Shown: positions 1,187 through 43,342 of the stretch, in pieces
Numbering within the stretch: position 1 is the stretch's first letter
Layout of the letters: the number at the start of each line of letters is the position of its first letter
From: Thiotrichaceae bacterium
GTDB lineage: Bacteria; Pseudomonadota; Gammaproteobacteria; Beggiatoales; Beggiatoaceae
Direction: 5' to 3'
NCBI GenBank assembly: GCA_011391085.1
Contig: JAABRD010000026.1
Coordinates: forward strand, 1-64,000
Length of the DNA: 64,000 bases
Notes under the pieces: model-generated
Databases searched by the model: none
Seen by the model: only the letters and a program-made list of their open reading frames with translations
What the model was told of the DNA's origin: nothing
Position numbers and translations under genes: made by a program

Positions 1187-2167
1187 ATGGATACATTATA
1201 TTTACTTAACAATACGAAAATCAGTCGTCATGATAACACGTTGCGGGTTGCGCCTGAGGAAGGGAAGGCGCGGAATTTTCCCGTGGAGGCGTTGAAACAT
1301 ATCATTGTGATTGGGAGTACCACGTTTAATACGGAACTGGCTACCTTTTTGGGTAAGAATGATGTGCGGGTGTCGTTTTTGGATTTTTATGGGAACTTTT
1401 CGGGGTCGTTGGAAGCGGCCACTCCTTATGCGTCGGGGAAGGTGCATTTGGCGCAGGCGCAAATTATTTTGGAGGAGGAGAAGCGGTTGGCTTTGGCGAA
1501 GTTGATGTTGGGTGGGGCGTCGCAGAATTTGTTGAATAATCTGCGTTATTATGCTTATCGTGGGAAGGAGGAGGTGAAACCTATCATTGAGGAGGTGCAG
1601 GCGCATCGGACTTTGTTGTTGGCGGCGAAGAGTATTGAACAGTTGATGGGGTATGAGGGGATGGCGCGACAGGCTTATTATTCGGCGTGGGGGTTGATTA
1701 ATCCGTTGTTGAAGATTGAGAAGCGGACGAGGCAACCGCCGACGGACCGGATTAACGCCCTCATTTCGTTTTGTAATGGGTTGGTGTATAGTGTTTGTAA
1801 GCATCAGTTGTCGCAAACGCATTTGGATTTGACGTTGAGTTTTATTCATGCGCCGACGCAGGCACGGGCTTCGTTGTCGTTGGATTTGGCGGAGATTTTT
1901 AAGCCGGTGGTGGCGGATAAGTTGTTGATATTTGGGATGGTGAATCGGCACATGTTGGGGGATGGGGATTTTGATGAGAAGGTGGGTATTTGTTTGTTGA
2001 GTGAGACGGGGCGTCGGAAGGTGGTGGAGGAGTTTCGGGAGAAGATGGATAAGGAGGAGGTTGAGGGAATGCGGGGTTGGAAGGCGGTGATGTTGCGGGA
2101 GGCGTTTCGGTTGCAAGCGCATGTGTTGGGGATGGAGTTGTATTCTCCGTATATTCATAGGGTGTAG
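1187..2167 (+). CDS. cas1: CRISPR integrase Cas1
   Basis: 326 residues. Cas1 is the metal-dependent integrase that inserts prespacers at the leader-end repeat in complex with Cas2. The likely active site is E157 (in YEGMARQAYYSAWG), H221 (in FIHAPT) and D233 or E236 (in LDLAEIF). The spacing of about 64 and 12-15 residues matches the family. The ATG at 1187 begins MDTLYLLNN, the expected start of the N-terminal beta domain; the 42 upstream in-frame codons translate repeat DNA (HRLKPLV). cas2 begins four bases after the stop, so the two genes are probably cotranscribed. Confidence 0.95.
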   Translation: MDTLYLLNNTKISRHDNTLRVAPEEGKARNFPVEALKHIIVIGSTTFNTELATFLGKNDVRVSFLDFYGNFSGSLEAATPYASGKVHLAQAQIILEEEKRLALAKLMLGGASQNLLNNLRYYAYRGKEEVKPIIEEVQAHRTLLLAAKSIEQLMGYEGMARQAYYSAWGLINPLLKIEKRTRQPPTDRINALISFCNGLVYSVCKHQLSQTHLDLTLSFIHAPTQARASLSLDLAEIFKPVVADKLLIFGMVNRHMLGDGDFDEKVGICLLSETGRRKVVEEFREKMDKEEVEGMRGWKAVMLREAFRLQAHVLGMELYSPYIHRV

Positions 2168-2171
2168 CGTT

Positions 2172-2450
2172 ATGTTTGTGGTGGTGTTTTATGATGTGCC
2201 TGCGAAGCGCACGAATGTGTTTCGGAAGTTGTTGTCTAGGTATTTGACTTGGCGGCAGAATAGTGTGTTTGCGGGGGATTTGACGGAGGCGTTGTATAAG
2301 AAGATGCGGCATGAGATTGATAAGGTGCTTAAGGATGAGGATAGGTTGGCTTTTGTGACGACGGCGAATCGGCATAATATTGCTGTGGAGATGTTGGAAC
2401 AGGGGATTTCTGGGCAGGATGATTCGCATCAAGGAAGTGCGGTGATGTAG
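2172..2450 (+). CDS. cas2: CRISPR adaptation protein Cas2
   Basis: 92 residues, the usual Cas2 length. Cas2 dimers bridge two Cas1 dimers in the spacer-integration complex. The protein begins MFVVVFYDVPAKRTNVFRKLL: a ferredoxin-like first strand ending in the conserved aspartate D8, then the basic helix. Earlier in-frame codons overlap the end of cas1 and were rejected because this ATG fits the family start exactly. It is the last gene before the array, which starts 249 bases downstream. Confidence 0.95.
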   Translation: MFVVVFYDVPAKRTNVFRKLLSRYLTWRQNSVFAGDLTEALYKKMRHEIDKVLKDEDRLAFVTTANRHNIAVEMLEQGISGQDDSHQGSAVM

Positions 2451-2699
2451 GGGGGTTGATAAATTGTGTAGGAGGTCTTATATTAGATGACGATTCATTA
2501 GCTAATTAGGCATGAAGGGTATATGGGTTTTATATAAATTCCATATAATATGTAGAGGACTACAACCTCCGGTGAGTCGAAAATGCTGGGGGGTCGTAGT
2601 AAAGTTGGAGGCGGTTCCTGCTGATTTGACGTATGATTTTGACTGCATTGACGTATTTGAAATCTTTCACTTATCGTCGGGAACCGCATTGAATGGAGG
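2451..2699 (+). promoter_or_regulatory. Candidate CRISPR leader / array-flanking region
   Basis: No gene is seen between cas2 and the first repeat. The region has an AT-rich part (about 2465-2560, including TATATAAATTCCATATAATATG) and a unique segment touching the array. That segment has an 8-base inverted repeat, GCGGTTCC at 2611-2618 and GGAACCGC at 2680-2687, enclosing two TGACGTAT copies. Position next to cas1-cas2 favours a leader on this side. However, the repeat read on the minus strand ends in CTTGAAAC, a common 5-prime crRNA handle form, which would put the leader at the other end. Array polarity is unresolved. Confidence 0.5.
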
Positions 2700-5600
2700 G
2701 TTTCAAGTTCCCATTAGGGGTAGAAAGATTTCCGCTTGGTGGGTCAAAAAAAATTGGTAGGAAGGTTTCAAGTTCCCATTAGGGGTAGAAAGCGTCTAAA
2801 AGAAAAACTTTTTGCAATAGATAAAAATGTTTCAAGTTCCCATTAGGGGTAGAAAGCCCACAATGAACCCGTCCACCGTCCACCCGTCCACCGTTTCAAG
2901 TTCCCATTAGGGGTAGAAAGGCTATGTCGTTAGATCGCTCAATCGGAATACACAGTTTCAAGTTCCCATTAGGGGTAGAAAGTGAGTAAACTTAGGCGTT
3001 TTTGCGGCAATTATAACAGGTTTCAAGTTCCCATTAGGGGTAGAAAGATGTAACCACGAGAGATCACCAATGACTATGTCGTTCTGTTTCAAGTTCCCAT
3101 TAGGGGTAGAAAGCCGCACTCAAAACAGTGTTCAAGTGCTTTCATTCAAGTTTCAAGTTCCCATTAGGGGTAGAAAGAGTGGCTTATTGGGGTAGTGGAC
3201 TAAGTAGATATTGTTTCAAGTTCCCATTAGGGGTAGAAAGTATTCTTTTCTATTTCAAGACCGTCTAAAAGAAAACTGTTTCAAGTTCCCATTAGGGGTA
3301 GAAAGGCACGGCGTGACTTTTTAAAAGCAATGATCTGAGGGGGTTTCAAGTTCCCATTAGGGGTAGAAAGACCGCCGATAAGGAAAGTCACCGCGTTGGA
3401 CATGGTGTTTCAAGTTCCCATTAGGGGTAGAAAGGCGGGGAATAACTGCACTGGTATCATCGTTGTCAGTATGTTTCAAGTTCCCATTAGGGGTAGAAAG
3501 TGCACCATGTAGAAGTATTAACGGGCGTTGCCATTGTTTCAAGTTCCCATTAGGGGTAGAAAGATACTGCGGCACTCAATTCATCCTTACTAGGCTGTGT
3601 TTCAAGTTCCCATTAGGGGTAGAAAGGTTGTCGAACAATTGAACCCGCCACTTGTTTTCATTGTTTCAAGTTCCCATTAGGGGTAGAAAGACCAATTTAT
3701 TGCAACGAGAAACGGCCGCGACCGTGTTTCAAGTTCCCATTAGGGGTAGAAAGAAAACCGTTTAGCAATGAAAAAAGGGGGTTGTTTGGGTGTTTCAAGT
3801 TCCCATTAGGGGTAGAAAGTCGCATTCTGCAAGTGTGGCTTTGTCGTCGTGGTTGTGTTTCAAGTTCCCATTAGGGGTAGAAAGCCTCCAGTTGCTTACT
3901 CACGGCGTACCAATAAGCACGTTTCAAGTTCCCATTAGGGGTAGAAAGTCAAGACGAACTATCTAGGCACTGGCGGATTAACCGCGTTTCAAGTTCCCAT
4001 TAGGGGTAGAAAGTCCATAGATGAACTCATGGAGTTAGATTTAATCGGGTTTCAAGTTCCCATTAGGGGTAGAAAGAGTATCAACTGTGCCTGGTATTAA
4101 ATTTGGTGTTCCTGTTTCAAGTTCCCATTAGGGGTAGAAAGACTGAGACAGCAATCAACTTGACTATCACTCAAATGGTTTCAAGTTCCCATTAGGGGTA
4201 GAAAGATACTGCGGCACTCAATTCATCCTTACTAGGCTGTGTTTCAAGTTCCCATTAGGGGTAGAAAGGTTGTCGAACAATTGAACCCGCCACTTGTTTT
4301 CATTGTTTCAAGTTCCCATTAGGGGTAGAAAGAAAGAATATGGGTACATGTATAGTTGTCGACGCGGTGTTTCAAGTTCCCATTAGGGGTAGAAAGTATT
4401 CTGTCAGTGGGGGGATGAGTCGCATGGGGGTGTTTCAAGTTCCCATTAGGGGTAGAAAGAATTTGAAGAGAAAAAAAAAAGTGCCTACTGTAGCCGTTTC
4501 AAGTTCCCATTAGGGGTAGAAAGCCTCCATTGAGGATATGGACTGCATCCTCACCTAACAGTTTCAAGTTCCCATTAGGGGTAGAAAGAGATTCAACGCG
4601 CTTTATCGTGTGCCGCGGGGGGACGGTTTCAAGTTCCCATTAGGGGTAGAAAGATCCGTACCCAAAACTCGTCTGTGCCCATAGAATCCTGTTTCAAGTT
4701 CCCATTAGGGGTAGAAAGGTTACAGATGCGGGCACGAGGGATGGCATTAAGGGACTGTTTCAAGTTCCCATTAGGGGTAGAAAGAATAGTTCCTACCACG
4801 TTCCCAACCCAGTCTTTTACTGTTTCAAGTTCCCATTAGGGGTAGAAAGTAGCATGCTGGCCAACTGGCTTAAGATGGTATCAGTTTCAAGTTCCCATTA
4901 GGGGTAGAAAGTCAAACCGAACCAAACCCGCATACATCCTTTGAATGGTTTCAAGTTCCCATTAGGGGTAGAAAGCATGGACCTTCTCAAAATCCGAACG
5001 ATAAGGCGACTTGTTTCAAGTTCCCATTAGGGGTAGAAAGAATAACACCATGAGGAGACAAAACAACTCAAACGGTTTCAAGTTCCCATTAGGGGTAGAA
5101 AGCACTGCCGGGACGGACGTAGCGGCCTTATCGCAACGTTTCAAGTTCCCATTAGGGGTAGAAAGTCGGTGGTTTTGAGATTAGAGATACCATTGAGTGG
5201 GTTTCAAGTTCCCATTAGGGGTAGAAAGCTTATATATAGAGGCATGGCAATAATGCCAAAACAAAAGTTTCAAGTTCCCATTAGGGGTAGAAAGTTGACC
5301 ATCATGTCGGTCTCTACTTTAGCGGCCTCTTGTTTCAAGTTCCCATTAGGGGTAGAAAGCTCGTGGTAGAGGTTTATCGAGTGGGGGGTATGGTTTGTTT
5401 CAAGTTCCCATTAGGGGTAGAAAGACAATCCAAATTGACCGCTGGATCAAACAGGTCGTCGGTTTCAAGTTCCCATTAGGGGTAGAAAGAAGATACTTTG
5501 AATCGCCGTGATGACAGAATCGTAGGTTTCAAGTTCCCATTAGGGGTAGAAAGAAATACCATACCAACCTCCATTCCATTCTCAATACGTTTCAAGTTCC

Positions 5601-8600
5601 CATTAGGGGTAGAAAGTATGCCATTCAAAGCCGTCCCCCGAAGCTGACCCAGGTTTCAAGTTCCCATTAGGGGTAGAAAGCCTTTGAGAATCAAGGTGGA
5701 ATGATAGCTTATTAGTTTCAAGTTCCCATTAGGGGTAGAAAGACTGGAATAGAGGACTTGATAGACCATAACATCTGATGTTTCAAGTTCCCATTAGGGG
5801 TAGAAAGAAAACCTTCAGAGGTGGGTGGGGAAGGAGGGACGTGGTTTCAAGTTCCCATTAGGGGTAGAAAGATCTCACGCTAGTGATATACAACATCCCA
5901 AGATAATGTTTCAAGTTCCCATTAGGGGTAGAAAGACACTTGAAATAGATTGTGGCCGATTTGCCCATTTAGTTTCAAGTTCCCATTAGGGGTAGAAAGT
6001 GCAACTTTTGCGACTCTTGAAGAAGCCGTGGCTTCAGTTTCAAGTTCCCATTAGGGGTAGAAAGCGAATCCAATGGACGGTTTTCTAAAACCTGATACGG
6101 TTTCAAGTTCCCATTAGGGGTAGAAAGTGATAATAAACTTAATCCGAATATCGCAATAAATGTTGTTTCAAGTTCCCATTAGGGGTAGAAAGATTGTTTT
6201 TTGTTCCTCTTGTGTGGGAGAGCGACTGTTTCAAGTTCCCATTAGGGGTAGAAAGTTTTACCCATTTACCACCTTTACAATCTGCGCGTGTTTCAAGTTC
6301 CCATTAGGGGTAGAAAGTGGTGATTCCATCCCGCGATGTTTGCGTGGTGGATGTTTCAAGTTCCCATTAGGGGTAGAAAGAATTTAGTGTCAGCATTGGT
6401 CGCTTTTTCGATTTCAGTTTCAAGTTCCCATTAGGGGTAGAAAGCCCAGATTACACCGTAGGGGAGTATCTTTATTCCTTCGGGTTTCAAGTTCCCATTA
6501 GGGGTAGAAAGGTTGACTTTGAGCTCCCATCAGTTGTATCAACATCGTTTCAAGTTCCCATTAGGGGTAGAAAGAACACGATGCGGATTAACCGGTGCAT
6601 AAACACCCCGTTTCAAGTTCCCATTAGGGGTAGAAAGACCACCCCCGTCAACGGACCAACTGGACCTGTTTCGGTTTCAAGTTCCCATTAGGGGTAGAAA
6701 GATGTATTTTCTTCTTGGAATTAGACGACTCTCATGGTTTCAAGTTCCCATTAGGGGTAGAAAGATGAAAGATTCAATCTCTTGTCTGTCATGGTTACAG
6801 TTTCAAGTTCCCATTAGGGGTAGAAAGTTGATGATTGACGCTGCCTATCAATACAGAAAGACGTTTCAAGTTCCCATTAGGGGTAGAAAGTCGTAGAAGA
6901 AGCGGAACAAACGCCGTTTGTGACACTGGTTTCAAGTTCCCATTAGGGGTAGAAAGTTTAACATCGTATCGCGATAGCCGGTCATAGCTTCGTTTCAAGT
7001 TCCCATTAGGGGTAGAAAGCTATACAAATTTTGAAACCCGCATGAATAGGGCATCGTTTCAAGTTCCCATTAGGGGTAGAAAGAAAAAAGAACCAAATAA
7101 AAAACTAACTAACCGCTAGTTTCAAGTTCCCATTAGGGGTAGAAAGTTTGAATAATACCACGCTTCTTAATTGCGGTGGTTTGTTTCAAGTTCCCATTAG
7201 GGGTAGAAAGTGATTTAACAGAATATCAATCCCTGAGAAATGCAGGGTTTCAAGTTCCCATTAGGGGTAGAAAGAAATAAGCTCGCGTGGTGTCGGGCGT
7301 TTTAAAACATCGTTTCAAGTTCCCATTAGGGGTAGAAAGCTCATCAATACCTTTCTTAGGAGGAATTGGACAGTGTTTCAAGTTCCCATTAGGGGTAGAA
7401 AGATTATACATTTTATCCCACGCCCATAATTCTTGCGAAGTTTCAAGTTCCCATTAGGGGTAGAAAGAATGAACACCAACGTACTGCCATCCTCATACTC
7501 TCTTTGTTTCAAGTTCCCATTAGGGGTAGAAAGATGATTGAGTACACGCCCGAAGGTAAAAAGGCATAGTTTCAAGTTCCCATTAGGGGTAGAAAGAAGT
7601 AGAGTTGATAACCATCATTGAGTATTTCATCTGTTTCAAGTTCCCATTAGGGGTAGAAAGATGATGACGGAATCGTAGTCACCTTCATTAAACAGTTTCA
7701 AGTTCCCATTAGGGGTAGAAAGAATTGTTGATTGGCTTTGGCACTTTTCACGCTTAGTGTTTCAAGTTCCCATTAGGGGTAGAAAGGGGTGACTTTGGGG
7801 TAGGTGCTGTCACTGGGGCGGGCGTTTCAAGTTCCCATTAGGGGTAGAAAGATTCTCCCCTTGCTATTCTTGCTGTTTCTTCAGTGGTTTCAAGTTCCCA
7901 TTAGGGGTAGAAAGAGGGGATACATCCAACACCGTCAGGCAATCAAGGTGGTTTCAAGTTCCCATTAGGGGTAGAAAGTAAGGGCGTCTCCGCCTGTAAT
8001 AGATTTGAATACAGAGTTTCAAGTTCCCATTAGGGGTAGAAAGGCTGGGTCGGTGATAGGCATTGCGGCAAAATCATGAGTTTCAAGTTCCCATTAGGGG
8101 TAGAAAGACCATACTATTAACGCACAGGTGTGGAATGTCGTTGTTTCAAGTTCCCATTAGGGGTAGAAAGAGTGATTTCAACTCCTAATGTAGAGGAGAG
8201 AATCGGTTTCAAGTTCCCATTAGGGGTAGAAAGATGTTTAAACCTCCTGTAGTATATAAGGATGCTGTTGTTTCAAGTTCCCATTAGGGGTAGAAAGTTG
8301 GTCAAACCCCTCCGTTGTCCATCCAAACGCGGCGAGTTTCAAGTTCCCATTAGGGGTAGAAAGTCCCGTAATAGATTTGAATACTGATCCGTCCCCTCGT
8401 TTCAAGTTCCCATTAGGGGTAGAAAGCCATAAGGAGTTTAGATACCCCCGTAACATAATTGGTTTCAAGTTCCCATTAGGGGTAGAAAGTGTTTTTTTAA
8501 ATATCAATACACTTTAATAAAAATAGTTTCAAGTTCCCATTAGGGGTAGAAAGTTGTTAGGCAACTTTTGGCGACCCTTGAAAAATTCAGTTTCAAGTTC

Positions 8601-31367: not shown

Positions 31368-31462
31368 TGCTTGCCTGAATCAGAATTTTCAGAATTAGAG
31401 AATTAACAGAATAAACCCTCAACTTATTCCGAAAATTCTAAAATTCTGTAAATTCTGATTTA

Positions 31463-32773
31463 GGGGATTACAATAAATAAATTATCCAATTATGTTGGAA
31501 TGTATGTTAGAATGATAGTCATCTTAATAACCAAAATTCTAACCATGAAACTAACAGATTCCCTCAAACAGCTTTTTATTGAGACGGCGGCAGAATTAAC
31601 GGGAGCCGCCCGTCGTTTATTTATGGCCAAAGTCGTTAAACAACTAGGTTCTGGTGGCCAATCGCAAGCCGAGCCAGAACTGGGCTGGAATCGTGGCACT
31701 CTCCGGAAAGGACTCCATGAGCTAGAAAGTGGCGTGACGTGCCTTGATAACTATTCGGCACGCGGACGAAAACCGTGTGAGACATCGCAGCCGAGGTTGT
31801 TAGAAGACCTCCAAGCTGTGGTTGATGGACAAAGTCAAACCGACCCAACGTTCAAAAGTACTCGTTTGTACGTCAGGCTCAGGGTCCGCGAAATTCGGTG
31901 TCAACTGATTAAACAGAAAGGTTATCTTGGCCAGGAATTGCCCTGTGACGAAACGCTCCGCCAAAAACTTAATGAGTTAGGTTACCATCAACGTCGCGTG
32001 AAAAAAAACCAGGCCTCAAAAAAAAATTCCTGAAACTAATGCCATTTTTGAGCAATTGCAAATGATTAATCAAGAAGCCGATACCAACCCAGACACTTTA
32101 CGAATTTCCATCGATGCGAAAGCTACCGTCAAACTTGGCTCTTTTGACCGCGGTGGCAAAACCAGGGTGTGTACCACGGCTAGTGACCACGATTTTGCGA
32201 CTCAAACCGTCACACCTTATGGTATTTTTATCCCTCAAACGGACGAATTGTTCATGTACTTTGTCTCTTCTAAATTGACTAGCGATTGCATGGTCGATAT
32301 CCTTCCAGATTGGTGGCAAACCTTCCGACCCCGTATGCCTCAGATTCAAACCTTGGTGATTAACCAAGATAATGGTCCTGAGAATAACTCTTCTCGGACC
32401 CAATTTATGAAACGTCTCGTCGAGTTTGCCAAAACCAACCAACTCCAGGTACAATTGGCTTATTATCCGCCCTATCATAGCAAATACAACCCCATTGAAA
32501 GAGTCTGGGCCGTGTTGGAGCATCATTGGAATGGTAGCCTGCTTTCTGACCTGGATACCGCGGTCCAATTTGCCAGGACTATGACTTGGAAAGGAAAGCA
32601 TCCTCTCGTTAAGGTAGTGACTCAAACCTACCAAACTGGGGTAAAATTAACCAAAGTAGCCATGGCGGCCATTGAAAATCAAATTGAACGTTTAACCGAT
32701 CTGGGAAAATGGTTTATCAAAATTGCGGGGCCGACGGAGGCTTAAGATGGACAATTTATTTATTGTAACCCCC
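31463..32773. mobile_element. ISAzo13-family insertion sequence
   Basis: A 1311-base element with 25-base ends, GGGGATTACAATAAATAAAT at the left (31463-31487) and its near-perfect complement at the right (32749-32773; one clear mismatch at position 5 and one more inside). The flanks duplicate TTA. The insertion is confirmed by the neighbouring tandem unit at 32972 onward, which preserves the uninterrupted form (AATTCTGATTCAGACCATTA), equivalent to the flanks joined together. The transposase reading frame is broken by one base. Confidence 0.9.
31545..32745 (+). pseudogene. ISAzo13-family transposase, frameshifted at an A9 run
   Basis: The N-terminal part (from the ATG at 31545) ends in frame at 32033. 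The C-terminal part continues in another frame as KIPETNAIFEQLQMIN through to 32745. The shift is at a run of nine A (about 32018-32026); with eight A the frames join into about 400 residues, the normal size. DDE features include LRISIDAKATVKLG, TLVINQDNGPENNSSRTQF and YYPPYHSKYNPIERVW. Either a one-base insertion has inactivated it, or slippage on the A run restores some full product, as is known for some insertion sequences. Confidence 0.85.
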
Positions 32774-33469
32774 TTAGAGCATTATACGCTTTTGAGTTAT
32801 TAATGTAATTATTATGTAAATCATTATGTACATAAATAGTTTTATTGCTTTAGCACCCTTATATTGGGGGTGGAGTGGCTTTTTGTAAAGCATTTTACAA
32901 CTTATCCATGGCAGTTTGACATAAACTTAATTTGGATGTCAAATTTTTTCCTGACGGGACTAAAATAAGTCAAATTCTAAAATTCTGTAAATTCTGATTC
33001 AGACCATTATACGCTTTTGAGTTATTAATATAATCATTATGTAAATTATTATGTACATAAATAGTTTTATTGCTTTAGCACCCTTATATTAGGGGTGGAG
33101 TGGCTTTTTGTAAAGCATTTTACAACTTATCCATGGCAGTTTGACATAAACTTAATTTGGATGTCAAAAATTTTTCTGACGGGACTAAAATACGTCTATG
33201 AGTTATTAATGTAATCATTATGTAAGTCTCAATGTGTATTGATGGTTTTATTGGTTTAAGATTGCTATATTAACATTTAGATATGGGTTTGTAAAGCACT
33301 GATAGCCTGGCCCACCAGATACACTCTTTTTTATCATATCAAATGGCCGACTATAGTGTTTAGAGTTAATACCATAATTCGCATTTAACTGACAGTGTGA
33401 ATTAGGTATCTTGGGTGGCTAATTGACAAATTAGCCGTATTATTCTCTATTTTCTATGAGGAAGATATT
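32774..33469. repeat. Tandem ~222-bp regulatory-type repeats upstream of the exported-protein locus
   Basis: No gene is seen in 696 bases. A unit running from AAATTCTGTAAATTCTGATT to GACGGGACTAAAATA occurs twice: the first copy is split by the ISAzo13 element (about 31433-31462 plus 32774-32967), the second is intact (about 32972-33192). A diverged third copy of the middle part lies at about 33195-33300. Each full copy holds TTGTAAAGCATTTTACAA, a perfect palindrome, and TTTGACAT ... ATGTCAAA, an inverted repeat containing a -35-like TTGACA. Such duplicated operator-like blocks suggest a regulated promoter region. Confidence 0.75.
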
Positions 33470-33799
33470 ATGACGAAGAACTTGTTGAAGGTCATCTCTT
33501 TGGGTGGTGTGCTTTTGCTGTCGTCGGGCGTGGTGATGGCCAGGGGCGATGGTGAAATGGAGGTCAACGTTGAAAACAGTGTTAAGGGCAATTCTACTGT
33601 TGTCTCTGGTAGCGGATCCCTTGGGATTAGTGCGATTAATGGTGAACTCCAGGGTTCAGGAGGAGTTGGCAACGGTGTGGATGTTAATTGCGGTGGTAAG
33701 CAGAATTGCACCGTTAATGTAACCAACGATGTAACGGGAGACTCCACCGTTATCGGTGACGGCGTGGGTAATGGTGTCAGAATTCGAGGCGGTCAGTAA
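33470..33799 (+). CDS. Small exported repeat protein, candidate fibre subunit
   Basis: 109 residues. A signal peptide spans about 1-24 (KVISLGGVLLLSSGVVMA). The mature part is Gly/Asn/Val-rich with VNVENSVKGNSTVVSGSG and VNVTNDVTGDSTVIGDGVGNG, two copies of a V-N-V-x-N-x-V-x-G-[ND]-S-T-V motif. These resemble short amyloid-type strands but are not a match to the CsgA repeat. Two cysteines lie between them (CGGKQNC). The next gene shares the motif, and a CsgG-like pore gene follows, so secretion as a surface subunit is plausible. I do not recognise a named family. Confidence 0.7.
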   Translation: MTKNLLKVISLGGVLLLSSGVVMARGDGEMEVNVENSVKGNSTVVSGSGSLGISAINGELQGSGGVGNGVDVNCGGKQNCTVNVTNDVTGDSTVIGDGVGNGVRIRGGQ

Positions 33800-33810
33800 A
33801 GTGTAAAAGA

Positions 33811-33841
33811 GACCTTGAAGGTGTTCAAAACCTTTAAGGTC
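33811..33841 (+). other. Intergenic hairpin between the two small exported-protein genes
   Basis: GACCTTGAAGGT (33811-33822) pairs with ACCTTTAAGGTC (33830-33841), one mismatch, with a 7-base loop. No T-tract follows, so it looks like an mRNA-stabilising or attenuating hairpin rather than a terminator. Confidence 0.65.
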
Positions 33842-33875
33842 CCGTAAAGTTGAAACTAACGAGGAAGTTACTGTC

Positions 33876-34208
33876 ATGAAAAAGATTATCACGCTCACAG
33901 TCTTATTTTCTGGATGTCTTGCCATTGCTGCTATCCAAGCGGCTGACCGCTTTGCGCCGGCGGATCCTAATGCTGCCTATCAAGAAATGCAAAAAAGGGC
34001 CGGAGATTCAGGTAGCCTCATTAACTCTGACTATATCAGTGCAAGTATAGCTGGTAAAGTTCAAAGGGAAGTACGTGAAGGTCAAGCAACCATCCCTGAA
34101 CAAGCTGTCGCTAACAGTGTGGTAGTACAACCAGGGGCTAACACAGGCGATATTTATGTGAATATTTCAGTGGAAGGAGACACTACCGTTGTTGGACCAG
34201 GCAGATAG
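33876..34208 (+). CDS. Small exported protein, paralogue-like partner
   Basis: 110 residues. Signal peptide about 1-22 (LTVLFSGCLAIAAIQAA, cleavage probably after AAIQA-A). The middle is charged and helical (YQEMQKRAGDS, AGKVQREVREGQ), and the end DIYVNISVEGDTTVVGPG repeats the V-x-G-[ND]-[ST]-T-V-V motif of the preceding protein. A secretion or nucleation role beside the upstream subunit is an inference from the shared motif and context. No known family is recognised. Confidence 0.65.
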   Translation: MKKIITLTVLFSGCLAIAAIQAADRFAPADPNAAYQEMQKRAGDSGSLINSDYISASIAGKVQREVREGQATIPEQAVANSVVVQPGANTGDIYVNISVEGDTTVVGPGR

Positions 34209-34213
34209 CAGAA

Positions 34214-34253
34214 AAAATCCTGACAGGCTTGTAAAGCCTGGCAGGTTTTCAAA
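34214..34253 (+). terminator. Hairpin after the second small exported-protein gene
   Basis: AATCCTGACAGGCTT pairs with AAGCCTGGCAGGTTTT (about 34217-34250) with a GTA loop and one mismatch, ending in a four-T stretch. It is a weak intrinsic terminator or attenuator that would leave less transcript for the CsgG-like gene than for the small proteins. Confidence 0.6.
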
Positions 34254-34304
34254 TACGACTCACTTGATGGAGTGAGTAACCAACTCAAGAGGAAATATCA
34301 TATT

Positions 34305-35618
34305 ATGAATGGCAAGGTAATATTTTATACCTTTATTACATTATTTGTTTCCGGTTGTGCAATAGAAAAGATTTCTACTGTCAATGAACCCATTTCACTT
34401 CCTCTGCCAGTCAAAAGTAAAACCATATTGACAGGGGAACTGGTCTGTTTTGGCGATATGCTTGCCGATTACAGATACGTTGCTGGTTATTTGGATGGGA
34501 ACGCCAAGGTAAAACCACTGGTCGTCTCCTTGCAATCAGTCAAGGATGCTACAGGCATTTCTAGCGAGTCTAGTCGAGAAATTCCTCCCGATATGACTGA
34601 TATGGCTACAGGAGTAGTTTTAAATGTTGGGGGCCCATTACGTGTGGCCCATATTCCAGGTAGTCAAGAACGTTTGGATGCCATTAATGCTTTCCAGATA
34701 AACCAACAGATCAGGTCTATGTCTCCCTATTTCAGATTTAAGCAATATTGGAAAGGCGGGATGGTTTTATATGGAGCACTGACTGAATATGACAGAACCT
34801 TTGGAAATGACAAAGATTCCTTGGACATGAAAGCCGATTTTGGGGGAGGTAGAGGAGAAACTAACTTCAGCGCATCTCATGAAGACATTGTTAATCGATC
34901 CAGAATGACTATGGACTTCAGGGCTATTGATACATCCATGGGGGATGCTGTCAATTCTGTCAGTTCCACCAATACGGTATGGCTTTACCAGTACGGTAGA
35001 GATAATTCCTTTGGGTTAAGTGTGAATGGCAACTCTATCGGTTATGCTAAATCCATTACGGAAGTAGATGCAAGACATGCCGCGATTAGATTGTTAATTG
35101 AATTGGGACTCATCCAAACAATTAGCAAATATGAACGGATTCCCTATTGGAAGTGTTTGCCTGGGGCAAGCAAAGAGGGTTACACTCGTTTCATAGATGT
35201 GTTGAAAGGGCAGAAACAAGAACCAAACGACTTGCGGGATGCCGATGTAATTATGGATGTCAAGCGTGACTTTGAATATGGTGACTACATCAATCCCACC
35301 GGTTATGTTCTTGAATACAAAAGGAGAGATTCACAAAAAAGTGAAATAGAGTTTTCTTCCTTACCAGAGAACCATCCTTTGAAAAAACAAACCATTGCAG
35401 GAAAGATTGATAAACTTGTCGCGGTTCTTGCGTTACATCAAAAAAATAACCTAAGTTTGCCACATGATCCTTTCCTTGCTTTGAAAACTCTCTATGAAAA
35501 ATTTCAGCAAGAGGGGGTCATACCGGTCAATGATACTGGAGGCTATTCCGGTACAAATATGTACCTCGCCCTCTGGTTAAATGTGCCAGTTAAACCAAAT
35601 GCGAGGTGGATACCGTGA
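34305..35618 (+). CDS. CsgG/HfaB-like outer-membrane lipoprotein
   Basis: 437 residues from the ATG at 34305. The signal peptide ends in a lipobox (LFVSGC). The middle part follows the CsgG pattern: VLYGALTEYDR, then VNRSRMTMDFRAIDTSMGDAVNSVSS, then ARHAAIRLLIELGLIQTISKY, comparable with the strand-strand-helix end of curli and holdfast pore proteins. About 150 extra residues follow, ending in a domain of unknown type. If right, it would form a secretion pore for the two small exported proteins upstream. Sequence similarity judged by eye is modest. It overlaps the next gene by four bases. Confidence 0.6.
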   Translation: MNGKVIFYTFITLFVSGCAIEKISTVNEPISLPLPVKSKTILTGELVCFGDMLADYRYVAGYLDGNAKVKPLVVSLQSVKDATGISSESSREIPPDMTDMATGVVLNVGGPLRVAHIPGSQERLDAINAFQINQQIRSMSPYFRFKQYWKGGMVLYGALTEYDRTFGNDKDSLDMKADFGGGRGETNFSASHEDIVNRSRMTMDFRAIDTSMGDAVNSVSSTNTVWLYQYGRDNSFGLSVNGNSIGYAKSITEVDARHAAIRLLIELGLIQTISKYERIPYWKCLPGASKEGYTRFIDVLKGQKQEPNDLRDADVIMDVKRDFEYGDYINPTGYVLEYKRRDSQKSEIEFSSLPENHPLKKQTIAGKIDKLVAVLALHQKNNLSLPHDPFLALKTLYEKFQQEGVIPVNDTGGYSGTNMYLALWLNVPVKPNARWIP

Positions 35619-36214
35619 CGAAGACGAAAATTTCTGCCATCCTGTTTGGGTGGCTTGTTGCTGTCTTATCTTATTCCGGTTCTGTTCCCGCGGAGGAGAT
35701 ACAGGAAAAAATTGTTTCTCTTCCACGAACCACAGAGAATGTTGAGATTAGGGGGCTTTTTGAAGTAAAATTGTCGATAACGACAGGAGATTCCTCGCTA
35801 GTTATTTCTTCAGAAGCCTCTAATCTTCCCAAAATCATCGTGGACGTTAATGACGAAACTGTTTTTGTGCATACGAAAGGTCGCATTTTATCTGATATTA
35901 TGCGTCCAAAAGTGGTTATCAAAATTCCACAACTCGTCACTTACACTTCGTCTGGAACAACCGATTCCGTGCTACGTGTCAATGTTCGCGGCCCACTAAC
36001 CATTAAGGCTGCTGGGGTTTCTAAAATTAACCTATATGGTTATGCTGATACCCTCAACATAGATGCCTCTGGCACCTCCAAGATACATGCTGACACTTTT
36101 AATGTCAATGAAGCGACAGTGAAATTAAAAGGGATCTCTTTTGCCTATTTCAAGCGCACTACAAGAGTTTCTCAACAATTGTCAGGAGTGAGTAAAGTCT
36201 ATTTACTCGATTAG
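35615..36214 (+). CDS. Exported DUF2807-like (GIN-domain) protein
   Basis: 199 residues from the GTG at 35615, which overlaps the preceding TGA as GTGA and has GAGGTGG eight bases upstream; a GTG at 35606 is also in frame. The signal peptide is about 1-27 (ILFGWLVAVLSYSGSVPA). The mature part shows the alternating beta pattern of the head-GIN/DUF2807 family: VEIRGLFEVKLSITTGDS, then repeated blocks SGTTDSVLRV, AAGVSKINLYG, DASGTSKIHAD, KGISFAYF. Such proteins form beta-solenoids in the envelope. The tight coupling to the CsgG-like gene suggests a shared role at the cell surface. Confidence 0.75.
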   Translation: MTKTKISAILFGWLVAVLSYSGSVPAEEIQEKIVSLPRTTENVEIRGLFEVKLSITTGDSSLVISSEASNLPKIIVDVNDETVFVHTKGRILSDIMRPKVVIKIPQLVTYTSSGTTDSVLRVNVRGPLTIKAAGVSKINLYGYADTLNIDASGTSKIHADTFNVNEATVKLKGISFAYFKRTTRVSQQLSGVSKVYLLD

Positions 36215-36248
36215 GTAACACTATTTACGACGAGAAAGGTTAAAAGTT

Positions 36249-37064
36249 ATGACTAAAAAATTGTTGATAGTCTCTTTACTACTACCGCCAGTTCTGCTGT
36301 TATCTGCTTGTTTGGGTGGAGGTACGCAACCAGCGGTTGATACCTCCTCCAAAGCACCAGAGGTTGCCAAATCGGAAACGTCCGACGGCAAGGCAGAGGC
36401 TACGACAACAGAAACTGCCAATTCCACTGCGGCAACCACCGGCGAAGTTTCAGAAACCCAGCAAAGTAATGCCTCCAAAACATCAGAAGTTGCCAAATCA
36501 GAAACGACTGCTGGCGGTGAGAAAACTTGTTCAGAAAATCCCATCACTGACCCAAATATATCAGGTGAGTACAACGGCGAATGTCAAGATGGATTGGCTG
36601 AGGGAAGTGGGGTAACGAAGGGAAAAGATCGTTACGATGGTCAATTCCACAAAGGCATGATGAATGGCAAAGGTACCTATACTTGGGCCAACGGCGATAG
36701 ATATGACGGCAACTTCGTGAATGACAAGAAGCATGGAGAAGGCGTGTTTTATGACGCTAAAACGAATAAGTTGTCCGTCGTCGAATTTCGAAACAATGAG
36801 AAGATTGGCAAAGCCACTACCCCAGAAGTGATTAGTCGGCCTTCGGTATCCTCTACAGAAAAAGGATTGTCATCGTTTCGAGACAATCTGCGTCCAGGCA
36901 TGATGACTATGCAAGGATTAGTGATCGAAGTGAAAACGCCTGAACGAATAGCCAAAGTCCAAACAGAAGGCAGTGTCGTGTCAAGCGATGGAAGAGTGAG
37001 TTTTGGCCTAGTAGAGAAATGGATACCTTTTGAAGAAATATATCCGTTGAGAGAGGATTTTTAA
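36249..37064 (+). CDS. MORN-repeat lipoprotein
   Basis: 271 residues. The lipobox LLSACLGG gives an acylated cysteine at about 21. A low-complexity Ala/Thr/Glu linker (about 25-95) carries a duplicated EVAKSET segment. About two to three MORN-type repeats follow (SGEYNGECQDGLAEGSG, DRYDGQFHKGMMNGKGTYTW, DRYDGNFVNDKKHGEGVF). The C-terminal 80 residues are unrecognised and end in IPFEEIYPLREDF. It is probably the last gene of the exported-protein locus: a terminator lies about 110 bases downstream. The role, perhaps envelope anchoring, is inferred. Confidence 0.8.
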   Translation: MTKKLLIVSLLLPPVLLLSACLGGGTQPAVDTSSKAPEVAKSETSDGKAEATTTETANSTAATTGEVSETQQSNASKTSEVAKSETTAGGEKTCSENPITDPNISGEYNGECQDGLAEGSGVTKGKDRYDGQFHKGMMNGKGTYTWANGDRYDGNFVNDKKHGEGVFYDAKTNKLSVVEFRNNEKIGKATTPEVISRPSVSSTEKGLSSFRDNLRPGMMTMQGLVIEVKTPERIAKVQTEGSVVSSDGRVSFGLVEKWIPFEEIYPLREDF

Positions 37065-37171
37065 ATAGGAAGTCAAGAGAACCGAAATTTCTCTATGCTT
37101 CGCTGGAAAACACCACCTAAGATCCAGCGGTGTTGACTCATTCGCACTCGGTAGCCATTCTGTCTTCAACA

Positions 37172-37208
37172 AAGCAGTTTGTCCCACTCCAGGGCAAACT
37201 GCTTTTTT
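37172..37208 (+). terminator. Rho-independent terminator after the exported-protein locus
   Basis: AAGCAGTTTG (37172-37181) pairs perfectly with CAAACTGCTT (37195-37204), with a 13-base loop and a six-T run at 37203-37208. It closes the plus-strand genes ending at 37064. Confidence 0.88.
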
Positions 37209-37313: not shown

Positions 37314-37799
37314 GTGGCCGATCCGTTTACTCTTTGGCAACAAATTTTGGAGATGCAACGTATGGACGTTTATGAACCCGGCCAACACGAGGCCGTTATC
37401 CCTTATATTGAACGTTATTTTCAAGCCTATCCAGAGGATTTGAGACGCTTGTCGATGACCCATGCGCTACTAGCCGAACAGCTACAGCAAGGTAGGCAAC
37501 AAGGAATGCAACAAGGAATGCAACAAGGAATGCAACAAGGGATGCAACAAGGAATGCAACAAGGAATGCAACAAGGGATGCAACAAGGAATGCAACAAGG
37601 AATGCAACAACAAACCAAGAAACTCTTGCTACGACAATTACAACTGAAATTTACCGCTATTCCAGACGCGGTTAGACGGCGGGTTGAAACTACCGAGAAT
37701 CTGGAACTGTTAGAAACTTGGCTGACTCAAGTGATGATGGCCAATTCGCTGGCGGAAACCGAGTTAGGGAATGGTACTTCCCAGGAGTCCAAAGCGTAG
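37314..37799 (+). CDS. DUF4351/Rpn-type C-terminal fragment with GMQQ minisatellite
   Basis: 161 residues from a GTG. Residues about 62-99 consist of nine tandem GMQQ units encoded by a 12-base repeat. The C-terminal LLRQLQLKFTAIPDAVRRRVETTENLELLETWLTQVM matches the pattern of the short domain that follows Rpn/YhgA-like nuclease cores. The nuclease core is missing, so this is probably a 5-prime-truncated relic or a small derivative. The DNA tandem repeat makes its length changeable. Upstream bases show no strong ribosome-binding site. Confidence 0.6.
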   Translation: MADPFTLWQQILEMQRMDVYEPGQHEAVIPYIERYFQAYPEDLRRLSMTHALLAEQLQQGRQQGMQQGMQQGMQQGMQQGMQQGMQQGMQQGMQQGMQQQTKKLLLRQLQLKFTAIPDAVRRRVETTENLELLETWLTQVMMANSLAETELGNGTSQESKA

Positions 37800-41230: not shown

Positions 41231-42169
41231 CTATCCATTGTCATCCGATTTTTCCCAGTCAATTAAGTAACTAGGACGTTGCTTGACTTCTTCGTAAATG
41301 TGGGCAATATAGACACCCATGATGCCTAATGCTATCATTAGCAAACTGCCGATTAATGAAATCAGCAAAATCACCGTGGTAAAACCATTGATGGCTACCC
41401 CCGTGAATTTTTGATATAGTGCTAGTGTACCAAATATGAGGCTGATTAGCAAGGACGTTAGACCCAATAAGGTGATGAGATGTAAAGGGGCAGAGGAGAA
41501 CGAAGTGATGGCGGTCAATGACAGTTTGATTAACCGTAAGTAGGACCAAGCGGTGGCACCGTGGGGACGTTCTGGCACGGTGAAAGGGATTTGTGCAGAA
41601 GTGAATCCTAGCCAAGGAATGATGCCGCGGAAAAAGCGTTTGCGTTCTGGTAAGGCACAATAGGCCGCGACTACCTTTTTATCAAGGAGTTTGAAATCGG
41701 AATGGTTTTTGATATTCATTCCTGCTAAACTGTCAAATAAATGATAGAAGGTATGTGCCAAAAAACGTGACGTCGAGGATTCTTGACCTCGTGACATTTT
41801 ATAGGCTTCTACCACAGGAATACCTTGTTGCCACAACTGAATCATTTGCGGAATGAGTTGGGGAGGATGTTGTAAGTCACTGTCCATCACAATTACCGCC
41901 TCCGTTTCGGTTGACACTTGGGCAAGTCCTGCCTGAATAGCCGCTTCTTTTCCAAAATTGCGGGTGAGATTGCGAAAGTGCAAGTTGGGATATTGTTTGC
42001 AAAGGGAACGCAGGGTGGAAACGGTGTTATCAGTGGAACCGTCATCAATGACCAATACTTTAAAAGTGATGTTGTGAATCGTTTCCAGTTGTGCGAAAAT
42101 CACAGGGAGATGCTGATCAAGGACGGCACCTTCATTGAACACGGGGATGATGAGGGTGATGGAGTGCAT
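41231..42169 (-). CDS. Membrane-bound GT2 glycosyltransferase (DPM1/GtrB-like)
   Basis: 312 residues. The GT2 catalytic domain shows ITLIIPVFNEGAVL, VLVIDDGSTDNTV and VIVMDSDLQHPP (DxD-type metal site). Two C-terminal transmembrane segments (about 225-250 and 262-290) and the end YEEVKQRPSYLID match the GtrB/DPM group that loads a sugar onto polyprenyl phosphate at the inner membrane. It probably feeds a surface glycan pathway with the methyltransferases and the large glycosyltransferase downstream. The last codons overlap a minisatellite. Confidence 0.92.
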   Translation of the reverse strand: MHSITLIIPVFNEGAVLDQHLPVIFAQLETIHNITFKVLVIDDGSTDNTVSTLRSLCKQYPNLHFRNLTRNFGKEAAIQAGLAQVSTETEAVIVMDSDLQHPPQLIPQMIQLWQQGIPVVEAYKMSRGQESSTSRFLAHTFYHLFDSLAGMNIKNHSDFKLLDKKVVAAYCALPERKRFFRGIIPWLGFTSAQIPFTVPERPHGATAWSYLRLIKLSLTAITSFSSAPLHLITLLGLTSLLISLIFGTLALYQKFTGVAINGFTTVILLISLIGSLLMIALGIMGVYIAHIYEEVKQRPSYLIDWEKSDDNG

Positions 42170-42171
42170 GG

Positions 42172-42461
42172 GGGTTGGGGTCTCTTAGGAGTACGGAATT
42201 GATTCCGCCCCTGGAAACGGAATAAATTCCGTACTCCAACTTATATGTTACCTTGGAGTACGGAATTTATTCCGCCCCTGGAAACGGAATAAATTCCGTA
42301 CTCCAACTTAACTACTTCGGGGTTGGGGTCTCTTAGGAGTACGGAATTGATTCCGCCCCTGGAAACGGAATCAATTCCGTACTCCAACTTATATGTTACC
42401 TTGGAGTACGGAATTGATTCCGCCCTGGAAACGGAATCAATTCCGTACTCCAACTTAACTA
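42172..42461. repeat. Four family B hairpins arranged as a duplicated pair
   Basis: Four inverted pairs (GGAGTACGGAATTGATTCCG type with CGGAATAAATTCCGTACTCC type) stand in series. Alternating linkers, CTTATATGTTACC and CTTAACTACTTC, and the repeated GGGTTGGGGTCTCTTAG (about 42175 and 42319) show that a two-hairpin block of about 144 bases was duplicated. Arms vary between TTTATT and TTGATT with matching changes in several partners. The last copy touches the stop codon of the methyltransferase gene. Confidence 0.9.
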
Positions 42462-43342
42462 CTTCCCATCTCAAAACGCGCCGCTACTGCAAACATCGTC
42501 GCAGGCAACCACACTGGGTATTTGGCTAACCACTTCGGTAACGAAAGACCCAATTGTTTGATTATCATACCCAAAGGAAACGCATGAGGATAAGGTAAGG
42601 TGACAGTGTGAGTGGCACCGGCACGTTGAAATAGGTCGGTTAAAGTTTTTTGGTCATAATAACTGATATGTTCAGGAATCTTAAACGAGGGCCACTGTTG
42701 GCCTTGTAATTTAAACCAAACACTATTCATTTGCGGGGTTGCCAAAATCAACCAACCTTCTGCATGTAAATGTTGACGTAATTGCTGAATAAAAGCCAGT
42801 GGGTGATAAACATGTTCAATCACGCCAGTGGCTAAAATCACTTGGTATAATTGCGATGCTGGGAGATTCTGGGCACCACCATGAATACCTTGATAACCTA
42901 ATTTTTGAACTTGGGCAATGGCTGTTGCATCAAAATCGGTCCCTGTGACGGAATCAAAAAAGGGAGCCGCGGCTTGCAAGAGGAAACCATAACCACAACC
43001 GACTTCTAGTAAATGACCCCCCGTCATGCCACGGCGTTGTAATTGTCGAATAAATTTGTTAAAAGTCAGTCGCAAAGAGTGTTCTTGGTCAACATAAGAA
43101 CCTTGCTGATGCGAATAACCATAATCACTTCCCCCTTGAAAATAATGGGGGTCAGCATATACTTTTAACATCTCTTCCTCACGCAAACGCGGTGACAAAT
43201 ACCATAATTGACATTGGGTACATTGTATCACACCAAATGGCGGAAACGCAAATCGTTTTCGTGGATGAGGTTTGTCGACGCCACAGAGAGGACAGGTCGG
43301 GTATTCTAGGGAGTCGGGAGGAATGGGGGAAGAATTTTTCAT
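42455..43342 (-). CDS. SAM-dependent methyltransferase with zinc-ribbon N terminus
   Basis: 295 residues. The N-terminal CPLCG ... CTQC segment is a Zn ribbon, typical of one family of class I methyltransferases in glycan clusters. The SAM site is LLEVGCGYGFLLQAA, with VTGTDFDATAI after it and VILATGVIEHV at motif IV. The acceptor is unknown; a sugar or surface polysaccharide is likely from the neighbours. The end (RFEMGSS) lies at the border of the family B cluster, so the original C terminus may have been altered. Confidence 0.85.
   Translation of the reverse strand: MKNSSPIPPDSLEYPTCPLCGVDKPHPRKRFAFPPFGVIQCTQCQLWYLSPRLREEEMLKVYADPHYFQGGSDYGYSHQQGSYVDQEHSLRLTFNKFIRQLQRRGMTGGHLLEVGCGYGFLLQAAAPFFDSVTGTDFDATAIAQVQKLGYQGIHGGAQNLPASQLYQVILATGVIEHVYHPLAFIQQLRQHLHAEGWLILATPQMNSVWFKLQGQQWPSFKIPEHISYYDQKTLTDLFQRAGATHTVTLPYPHAFPLGMIIKQLGLSLPKWLAKYPVWLPATMFAVAARFEMGSS

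Follow-up and report, generated by a model that had tools for sequence, protein, structure and literature searches.

A candidate CsgG-type fibre-secretion operon, distinct from curli, in a Thiotrichaceae bacterium

The CsgG pores underlie the biology of curli (type VIII, CsgA-G) and are used in nanopore sensing. In the Caulobacter holdfast anchor, HfaB is CsgG-like, and both HfaA, which is curlin-like, and HfaD need HfaB to reach the surface, as stated in the available sections of the source (PMC6707917). A larger family was foreseen by Dueholm et al. in 2012: in the accessible part of that paper, 171 of 601 PF03783 matches are curli and the non-specific CsgG matches are considered likely paralogues of a larger family (PMC3521004), and the NanoporeDB report, in the portion at hand, describes a broad CsgG-like structural family across phyla (PMC13397529). 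The subject of the present work is a run of five genes at positions 33470-37064 of the first 64,000 nucleotides of contig JAABRD010000026.1 (assembly GCA_011391085.1, Thiotrichaceae bacterium), the whole stretch being called the window hereafter; this operon probably encodes an outer-membrane system, of CsgG type (type VIII-like) but separate from curli, for the secretion of a fibre. The computed results on which this reading is built are the gene order, the CsgG-like fold of the third product (P0003), the membership of P0002, P0003 and P0004 in families and the recurrence of the whole module in other genomes; a pore function, the export of the small proteins, their assembly into a fibre and the role of each of them are what such an arrangement would suggest.

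The operon and its predicted channel protein

Analysis of the open reading frames (ORFs) of the window confirmed five of them, head to tail and co-directional on the + strand, at 33470-37064; the features of the region are listed below, the signal peptides having been judged by eye only, without a predictor.

33470-33799, + strand: P0001, 109 amino acids, with a signal-like N-terminus and a pair of imperfect repeats; probably the main subunit exported for the fibre
33811-33841, + strand: hairpin in the gap between P0001 and P0002, -18.3 kcal/mol, z -6.3; possible transcript stabiliser or attenuator
33876-34208, + strand: P0002, 110 amino acids, signal-like N-terminus, S family; putative channel partner or nucleator
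34211-34250, + strand: hairpin with a T run in the gap between P0002 and P0003, -17.9 kcal/mol, z -3.8, 1 of 200 shuffles being as good
34305-35618, + strand: P0003, 437 amino acids, lipobox VSGC; predicted CsgG-like outer-membrane channel
35615-36214 (alternative start 35606), + strand: P0004, 199 or 202 amino acids, DUF2807 exported protein; probably translationally coupled
36249-37064, + strand: P0005, lipoprotein of 271 amino acids with two MORN repeats (MORN E 2.4e-15)
about 37171-37208, + strand: strong hairpin with a T run behind it, probably the terminator of the operon (z -3.4 for the 146-nucleotide region)

A preliminary description of this DNA had reported a motif common to two small exported proteins and an overlap between the genes of P0003 and P0004, and both were confirmed. 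The motif V-x-G-[ND]-[ST]-T-V-[VI] occurs at exactly three sites in the six-frame translation of the 64 kb, two in P0001 (33581 and 33731) and one in P0002 (34170), and nowhere else, its chance rate being 0.00015 per shuffle (20,000 shuffles of mature P0001). For the start of P0004 within the overlap there are two GTG codons, 35606 and the likelier 35615; the latter overlaps the TGA stop of P0003 as GTGA and has GAGGTGG five bases upstream, and because of these two features the translation of P0004 is likely coupled to that of P0003.

Sequence comparison assigns P0003 to a recurrent family of putative channel proteins; indeed, a hidden Markov model (HMM) of the channels of other loci, built without the window, recovered it with E 4.2e-36 among the 416 ORFs of the window and of loci L006-L009. 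Its lipobox VSGC (Cys18) is nearly invariant in 49 sequences; LPAM_1 gives 12.6 bits, under the cut-off of 20, and apart from a weak lipoprotein signal P0003 has no match in either Pfam or NCBIfam. Its relatives within the same order are one close (G028, 44% identity), one at middle distance (G013) and two remote (G017 and G057), the remote ones (P0008 and P0009) lying over the Pfam CsgG cut-off (28.1 and 30.9 bits vs 20.8). Among 49 family members scanned singly, 11 match CsgG at E up to 0.1 (best 0.0016), P0003 not being one of them; the C-terminal part resembles PG_binding_1 in 20 of the 49 (E up to 0.1), the channel proteins of L007 and L033 exceeding the cut-off of this family, and DUF4384 in 6. 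A profile-profile comparison against seven proteins that match Pfam CsgG gave E 1.8e-5 over 217 columns, a value which counts for less because the seven had first been found by a profile containing P0003, making the comparison partly circular. The alignments were A5, which holds 48 of the 50 full-length channel proteins (two near copies omitted), and A10, which covers seven of ten weak-match loci (two were without a suitable ORF and one was too short).

By its predicted model, P0003 has a CsgG fold with two membrane beta-hairpins. The AlphaFold model, obtained with 48 homologues, has a mean predicted local distance difference test score (pLDDT) of 65.7, ranging by ten-residue blocks over 62-92 at residues 41-110 and 151-290 and over 46-64 at 111-150, the C-terminal 150 residues being poorly modelled; two long hairpins are seen at 152-179/186-209 and 218-240/243-252. 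In a Foldseek search of the PDB with this model, ranks 1-25 are all CsgG or curli-complex chains (best E 1.7e-9), and VIA aligned it to CsgG with Z 13.6 (216 aligned of 257), the alignment spanning both hairpins, as compared to Z 8.4 for the next other fold (143 aligned, root-mean-square deviation, rmsd, 3.3). The link of P0003 to CsgG thus rests on its relatives, on the profile-profile comparison and on the fold, not on direct library scans; in this form the CsgG/HfaB-like label proposed earlier for the 437-residue lipoprotein survives, the structure prediction having brought up CsgG where the Pfam profile had not.

Recurrence of the module and its component families

A domain profile of five channels had matches in 17 of 369 class genomes at E 0.001. 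Seven were strong (<1e-20), namely the window's own and six others, and a scan of genome contigs with three of these led to 55 named loci. These belong mainly to sulfate reducers, methanotrophs and Nitrospira-like bacteria, and include Methylotuvimicrobium buryatense 5G (CsgG-like gene at L035 7001-8542), Desulfobulbus elongatus DSM 2908 and Desulfobulbus alkaliphilus DSM 24258, taxa and phyla being inferred from record titles; in the window's own order a strong A5 match was found in 3 of 42 genomes and a weak one in another, which makes the system patchy. The usual gene order is one or more repeat proteins (R), a protein of about 110 residues (S), the channel (C) and, often, a DUF2807 protein. 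What had been presented as a possible new curli- or holdfast-like system thus keeps its CsgG-type fold and appears as a divergent member of a system recurring in 55 loci, not as a local curiosity.

S lies immediately upstream of the channel in 49 of the 51 loci with at least 600 nucleotides of upstream sequence (49 of 55 overall), and its members have a DLDDGI-like mature start and, in many cases, a tail NSVV...G...GDI...GDKT (GDxTxV). P0002 is placed in this family by an S-family HMM made without window sequences (E 1.1e-7 in the same set of 416 ORFs); alignment A8 comprises 28 S proteins of the 55 loci, P0002 and one from L006. Over the 369 class genomes the S profile had four matches, every one directly upstream of a channel gene; homologues in unrelated contexts, which would have spoken against the system as first described, were not seen for S in this set. 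All four are among the seven class genomes whose channel match was strong; of the others, G076 has a contig end just upstream of the channel, and G156 and G271 have different-looking small proteins. Since no other small protein of the window is conserved together with the channel from locus to locus, P0002/S is the best candidate for a nucleator, tether or gate. Neither P0001 nor P0002 has a useful Pfam or NCBIfam match.

Upstream of S, the R proteins amount to 275 repeat units in 70 ORFs of 47 of the 55 loci, the latter figure being an upper bound, as the composition filter passed unrelated ORFs (e.g., a caspase-like one); 215 of the units are of 36 residues. R proteins run to about 380 residues of uniform repeats and are found in some loci as near-identical tandem copies, three in L037. 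The R protein of L055, whose model is based on alignment A7 (16 repeat proteins chosen by hand), is predicted to form a regular beta-solenoid of seven 36-residue coils with a mean pLDDT of 94.4; in the PDB it matches generic folds of the beta-helix or pentapeptide-repeat kind, with no Foldseek E below 0.001, and its VIA list, without curli, says nothing either way. P0001, for its part, is weakly duplicated internally, its self score being attained by 3 of 500 shuffles, and locally resembles P0002, with 4 of 500 shuffles scoring as high. Clearly related to it are two paralogues in tandem, which occupy the corresponding place in L006 (0 of 500 shuffles each), the mature small proteins of the window and of L006 being about 85-100 residues long; no clear homologue was found in the 55 loci, the set over which unrelated contexts of P0001 were looked for. 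Its position, the duplication in L006 and the shared motif suggest a role of P0001 as a subunit, and the tandem R copies, together with the P0001-like pair in L006, would fit a bulk fibre subunit.

DUF2807 is a beta-solenoid family, and P0004 is its only match in the assembly (PF10988; E 8.8e-12, 45.6 bits vs a cut-off of 24.2); an HMM of the DUF2807 neighbours of other loci, made without the window, also recovers P0004 (E 1.9e-18). A DUF2807 protein follows the channel in 21 of the 48 loci with at least 1500 nucleotides downstream, its gene being in all 21 on the channel's strand, 605-2039 nucleotides after it. The seven class genomes with a strong channel have DUF2807 anywhere in four cases and beside the channel in three; given its presence in 51 of 369 class genomes (46 over the cut-off) and the location of the G156 copy on another contig than the channel, DUF2807 was rejected as a diagnostic marker. 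The MORN lipoprotein P0005, counted earlier as a component, is indeed present in the gene run; it has no relative in the 55 loci and was rejected as a core part.

Three families recur downstream of the channel: a small protein in 21 of the 55 loci, LPP20-like proteins in 24 (the one member scanned has 26.3 bits vs a cut-off of 25.9) and a small membrane protein in 30. The last, family T (...GRYQISAWG...GAFVVDTATGETK...), stands close behind the channel, as in L055 5805-6104, and has no clear member in the window. In L055, a small protein nearby has a CsgF-like match (E 0.16) that looks like chance, and the family of that protein has no clear member in the window either (best E 0.12). Near the channels of L031 (Methylotuvimicrobium) and L033 (another gammaproteobacterium) are genes, at 1890-3191 and 6071-7801 respectively, whose products we take to be caspase-like. 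In L007 (7688-12278, genome G013) the channel carries PG_binding_1 and DUF4384 domains and is preceded by several small proteins with the pattern ...GNNxMxIxFDNxIALG.... A second CsgG-like arrangement occurs in the same order at L008 2195-6358 and L009 892-3211, where a CsgG recognised at Pfam level is preceded by two or three small proteins whose repeats are of the GDIEA/NANA type; L008 also has a protein of 437 amino acids without Pfam match, which may be an outer-membrane barrel. A link to cable bacteria, prompted by the many Desulfobulbaceae titles, was set aside: no locus title names one, and no CsgG paper was found for them.

As to the surroundings of the operon, the hairpins inside it could let the subunit exceed the channel in amount. 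The end coordinate 37208 of the preliminary description fits the hairpin and T run at about 37171-37208; a terminator consensus scan gave 4 sites against 4.5 expected, none of the three hairpins listed above being among them, and a promoter scan gave 16 against 12.3 expected, a count which is no evidence. An element at 31462-32774, presumably IS630-like (IS, insertion sequence), is bounded by inverted repeats of 27 nucleotides (93%) and encloses two ORFs on the same strand, 31500-32033 and 32056-32745, which look like one transposase split in two; the element stops about 0.7 kb upstream of the operon. Upstream of P0001, at 32776-33272, are two 196-nucleotide copies of a sequence (95%, spacing 225) and a third, decayed copy, the sole other match in the assembly being a 72% partial copy at G000:C69:37764-37876; a duplicated promoter or operator region is possible. 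ORF 37314-37799 has a long QQGM repeat run in its middle, and the minus-strand ORF 42241-42474, built of near-identical LEYGIDSVSR/GGINSVL units, is probably a DNA repeat read as protein.

Proposed mechanism and competing explanations

In the mechanism we propose, the Sec pathway would take P0001, P0002 and P0004 to the periplasm, and P0003, once lipidated, would reach the outer membrane and form an oligomeric pore to which each subunit would contribute two beta-hairpins. P0001 and P0002 would pass this pore unfolded and assemble on the surface, P0001 probably as the principal building block of a fibre of beta-solenoid or amyloid-like nature, and P0002, which adjoins the channel and is conserved, probably as the cap, nucleator or tether of this fibre. 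P0004, the synthesis of which would keep pace with that of the channel, would be an accessory surface or periplasmic protein that may cap or decorate the fibre, and P0005 may be a lineage-specific passenger or envelope factor.

Several results weigh against a fibre-secreting channel of the CsgG type. PF03783 (CsgG) does not match P0003 and has no match in the whole 5.77-Mb assembly; neither phmmer with P0003 nor the A5 profile found CsgG among the PDB sequences, and the A5 profile, used at E 0.001, missed the relatives in G017 and G057 that are CsgG-positive, so that the bridge to CsgG-positive proteins rests on weaker links. In the model, confidence is low at residues 111-150 and 295-361, the template modelling scores (TM-scores) to CsgG are modest (0.34-0.54, by target length) and the VIA rmsd to CsgG is large (8.1). 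No CsgE/F-like helper was identified; for CsgE, no Pfam match was found among the five operon proteins, a genome-wide CsgE search not having been made. P0001 has no detectable relation to the 36-residue repeats of other loci (E 6 with a repeat HMM of 170 units), and the idea that it is their homologue was dropped. As for DUF2807, 47 of the 51 class genomes possessing it have no strong channel match, and G028, the genome with the closest channel, has no DUF2807 match.

The readings that compete with a secretion system for fibres assign other tasks to the same proteins. It is unlikely that P0003 is a non-secretory outer-membrane ring or scaffold of CsgG-like fold, with the small proteins as its periplasmic structural partners; such a scaffold would be in keeping with the Z of 7-8 scored by envelope proteins of related fold (HpaA, FlgT, TraT and LptE), with the PG_binding_1 resemblance of 20 of the 49 family members, and with the OmpA-domain proteins found near the channel in L030, L031 and L033, but CsgG is well ahead of any other fold (Z 13.6 vs 8.4) and aligned across both hairpins, and the long, signal-bearing beta-solenoid repeat proteins upstream suit cargo better. 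That the small proteins are soluble secreted factors (e.g., antibacterial peptides or signals) and not fibre subunits is very improbable: the length of the mature proteins in the window and in L006, only about 85-100 residues, would allow it, yet elsewhere the proteins in the same position consist of uniform repeats and reach about 380 residues, one of them being modelled as a beta-solenoid, and similar subunits stand in tandem, two in L006 and three in L037.

An anchor of the holdfast kind, in which the CsgG-like protein and small surface proteins would fix a polysaccharide with no free fibre, appears unlikely. ORF 41231-42169, on the opposite strand, the product of which is presumably glycosyltransferase-like, speaks in its favour. 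So do the similar size of the operon and the precedent of HfaABD, whose HfaA and HfaD depend on the CsgG-like HfaB in the sections of the source available (PMC6707917). On the other hand, the five ORFs of the operon include no polysaccharide gene, and P0001 and P0002 match no holdfast family in Pfam or NCBIfam, the presence of HfaA and HfaD models in these libraries being unchecked.

Comparison with described systems

The operon resembles curli in its CsgG-fold lipoprotein channel, as predicted, and in its complement of small repeat proteins predicted to be exported; it differs from curli in the repeat unit of its relatives, mostly of 36 residues and in one case modelled as a beta-helix-like solenoid, and in the additional C-terminal part of the channel. 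To our knowledge, the S protein and DUF2807 have no curli counterpart. The absence of recognisable curli components noted in the preliminary description was borne out over the 5.77-Mb assembly, where, in addition to Pfam CsgG, the curlin repeat of CsgA/CsgB (PF07012) and CsgF (PF10614) have no match, the E. coli controls of the latter two being positive. The likeness to HfaABD lies in a CsgG-like protein, HfaB, with two small surface partners, as described in the available part of the source (PMC6707917); here, the conserved partner is the S family, and a kinship with Hfa is possible. The CsgG paralogues of Dueholm et al. differ in that no operon of the present kind is named in the accessible part of that paper, and PF03783 misses P0003 (PMC3521004), and the CsgG-like pores of NanoporeDB are sorted by structure, no operon, S or repeat protein being named in the portion at hand (PMC13397529). 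In the open-access literature, no paper was found that brings together CsgG and DUF2807, or CsgG and Methylomicrobium buryatense.

The large curlin catalogue of 2023 was mined, according to the sections available, with curli HMM profiles (PMC10192328), and the genome studied here has no curlin-repeat match. If the proposed reading is true, it would contribute a fibre that can be exported and is built on a simple coil of 36 residues, a new protein partner of the channel and, for environmental bacteria that have been little studied, a candidate surface polymer. We see about even chances for a wider proposal, namely that a second large class of CsgG-type fibre systems, apart from curli and Hfa, exists in several phyla (by record title, Methylococcaceae, Desulfobulbaceae, other sulfate reducers and Nitrospira-like bacteria) and exports 36-residue beta-solenoid repeat proteins with a partner of about 110 residues and often DUF2807, the lineage of the window having replaced the long subunit with a short, two-repeat one and kept the channel, the partner and DUF2807. 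Such a class would represent a family of surface fibres of bacteria that has not been described, and might be of importance in communities that live on sulfide and methane. Curli and Hfa are the nearest described systems, and there is a fair chance that the wider family deserves a name of its own.

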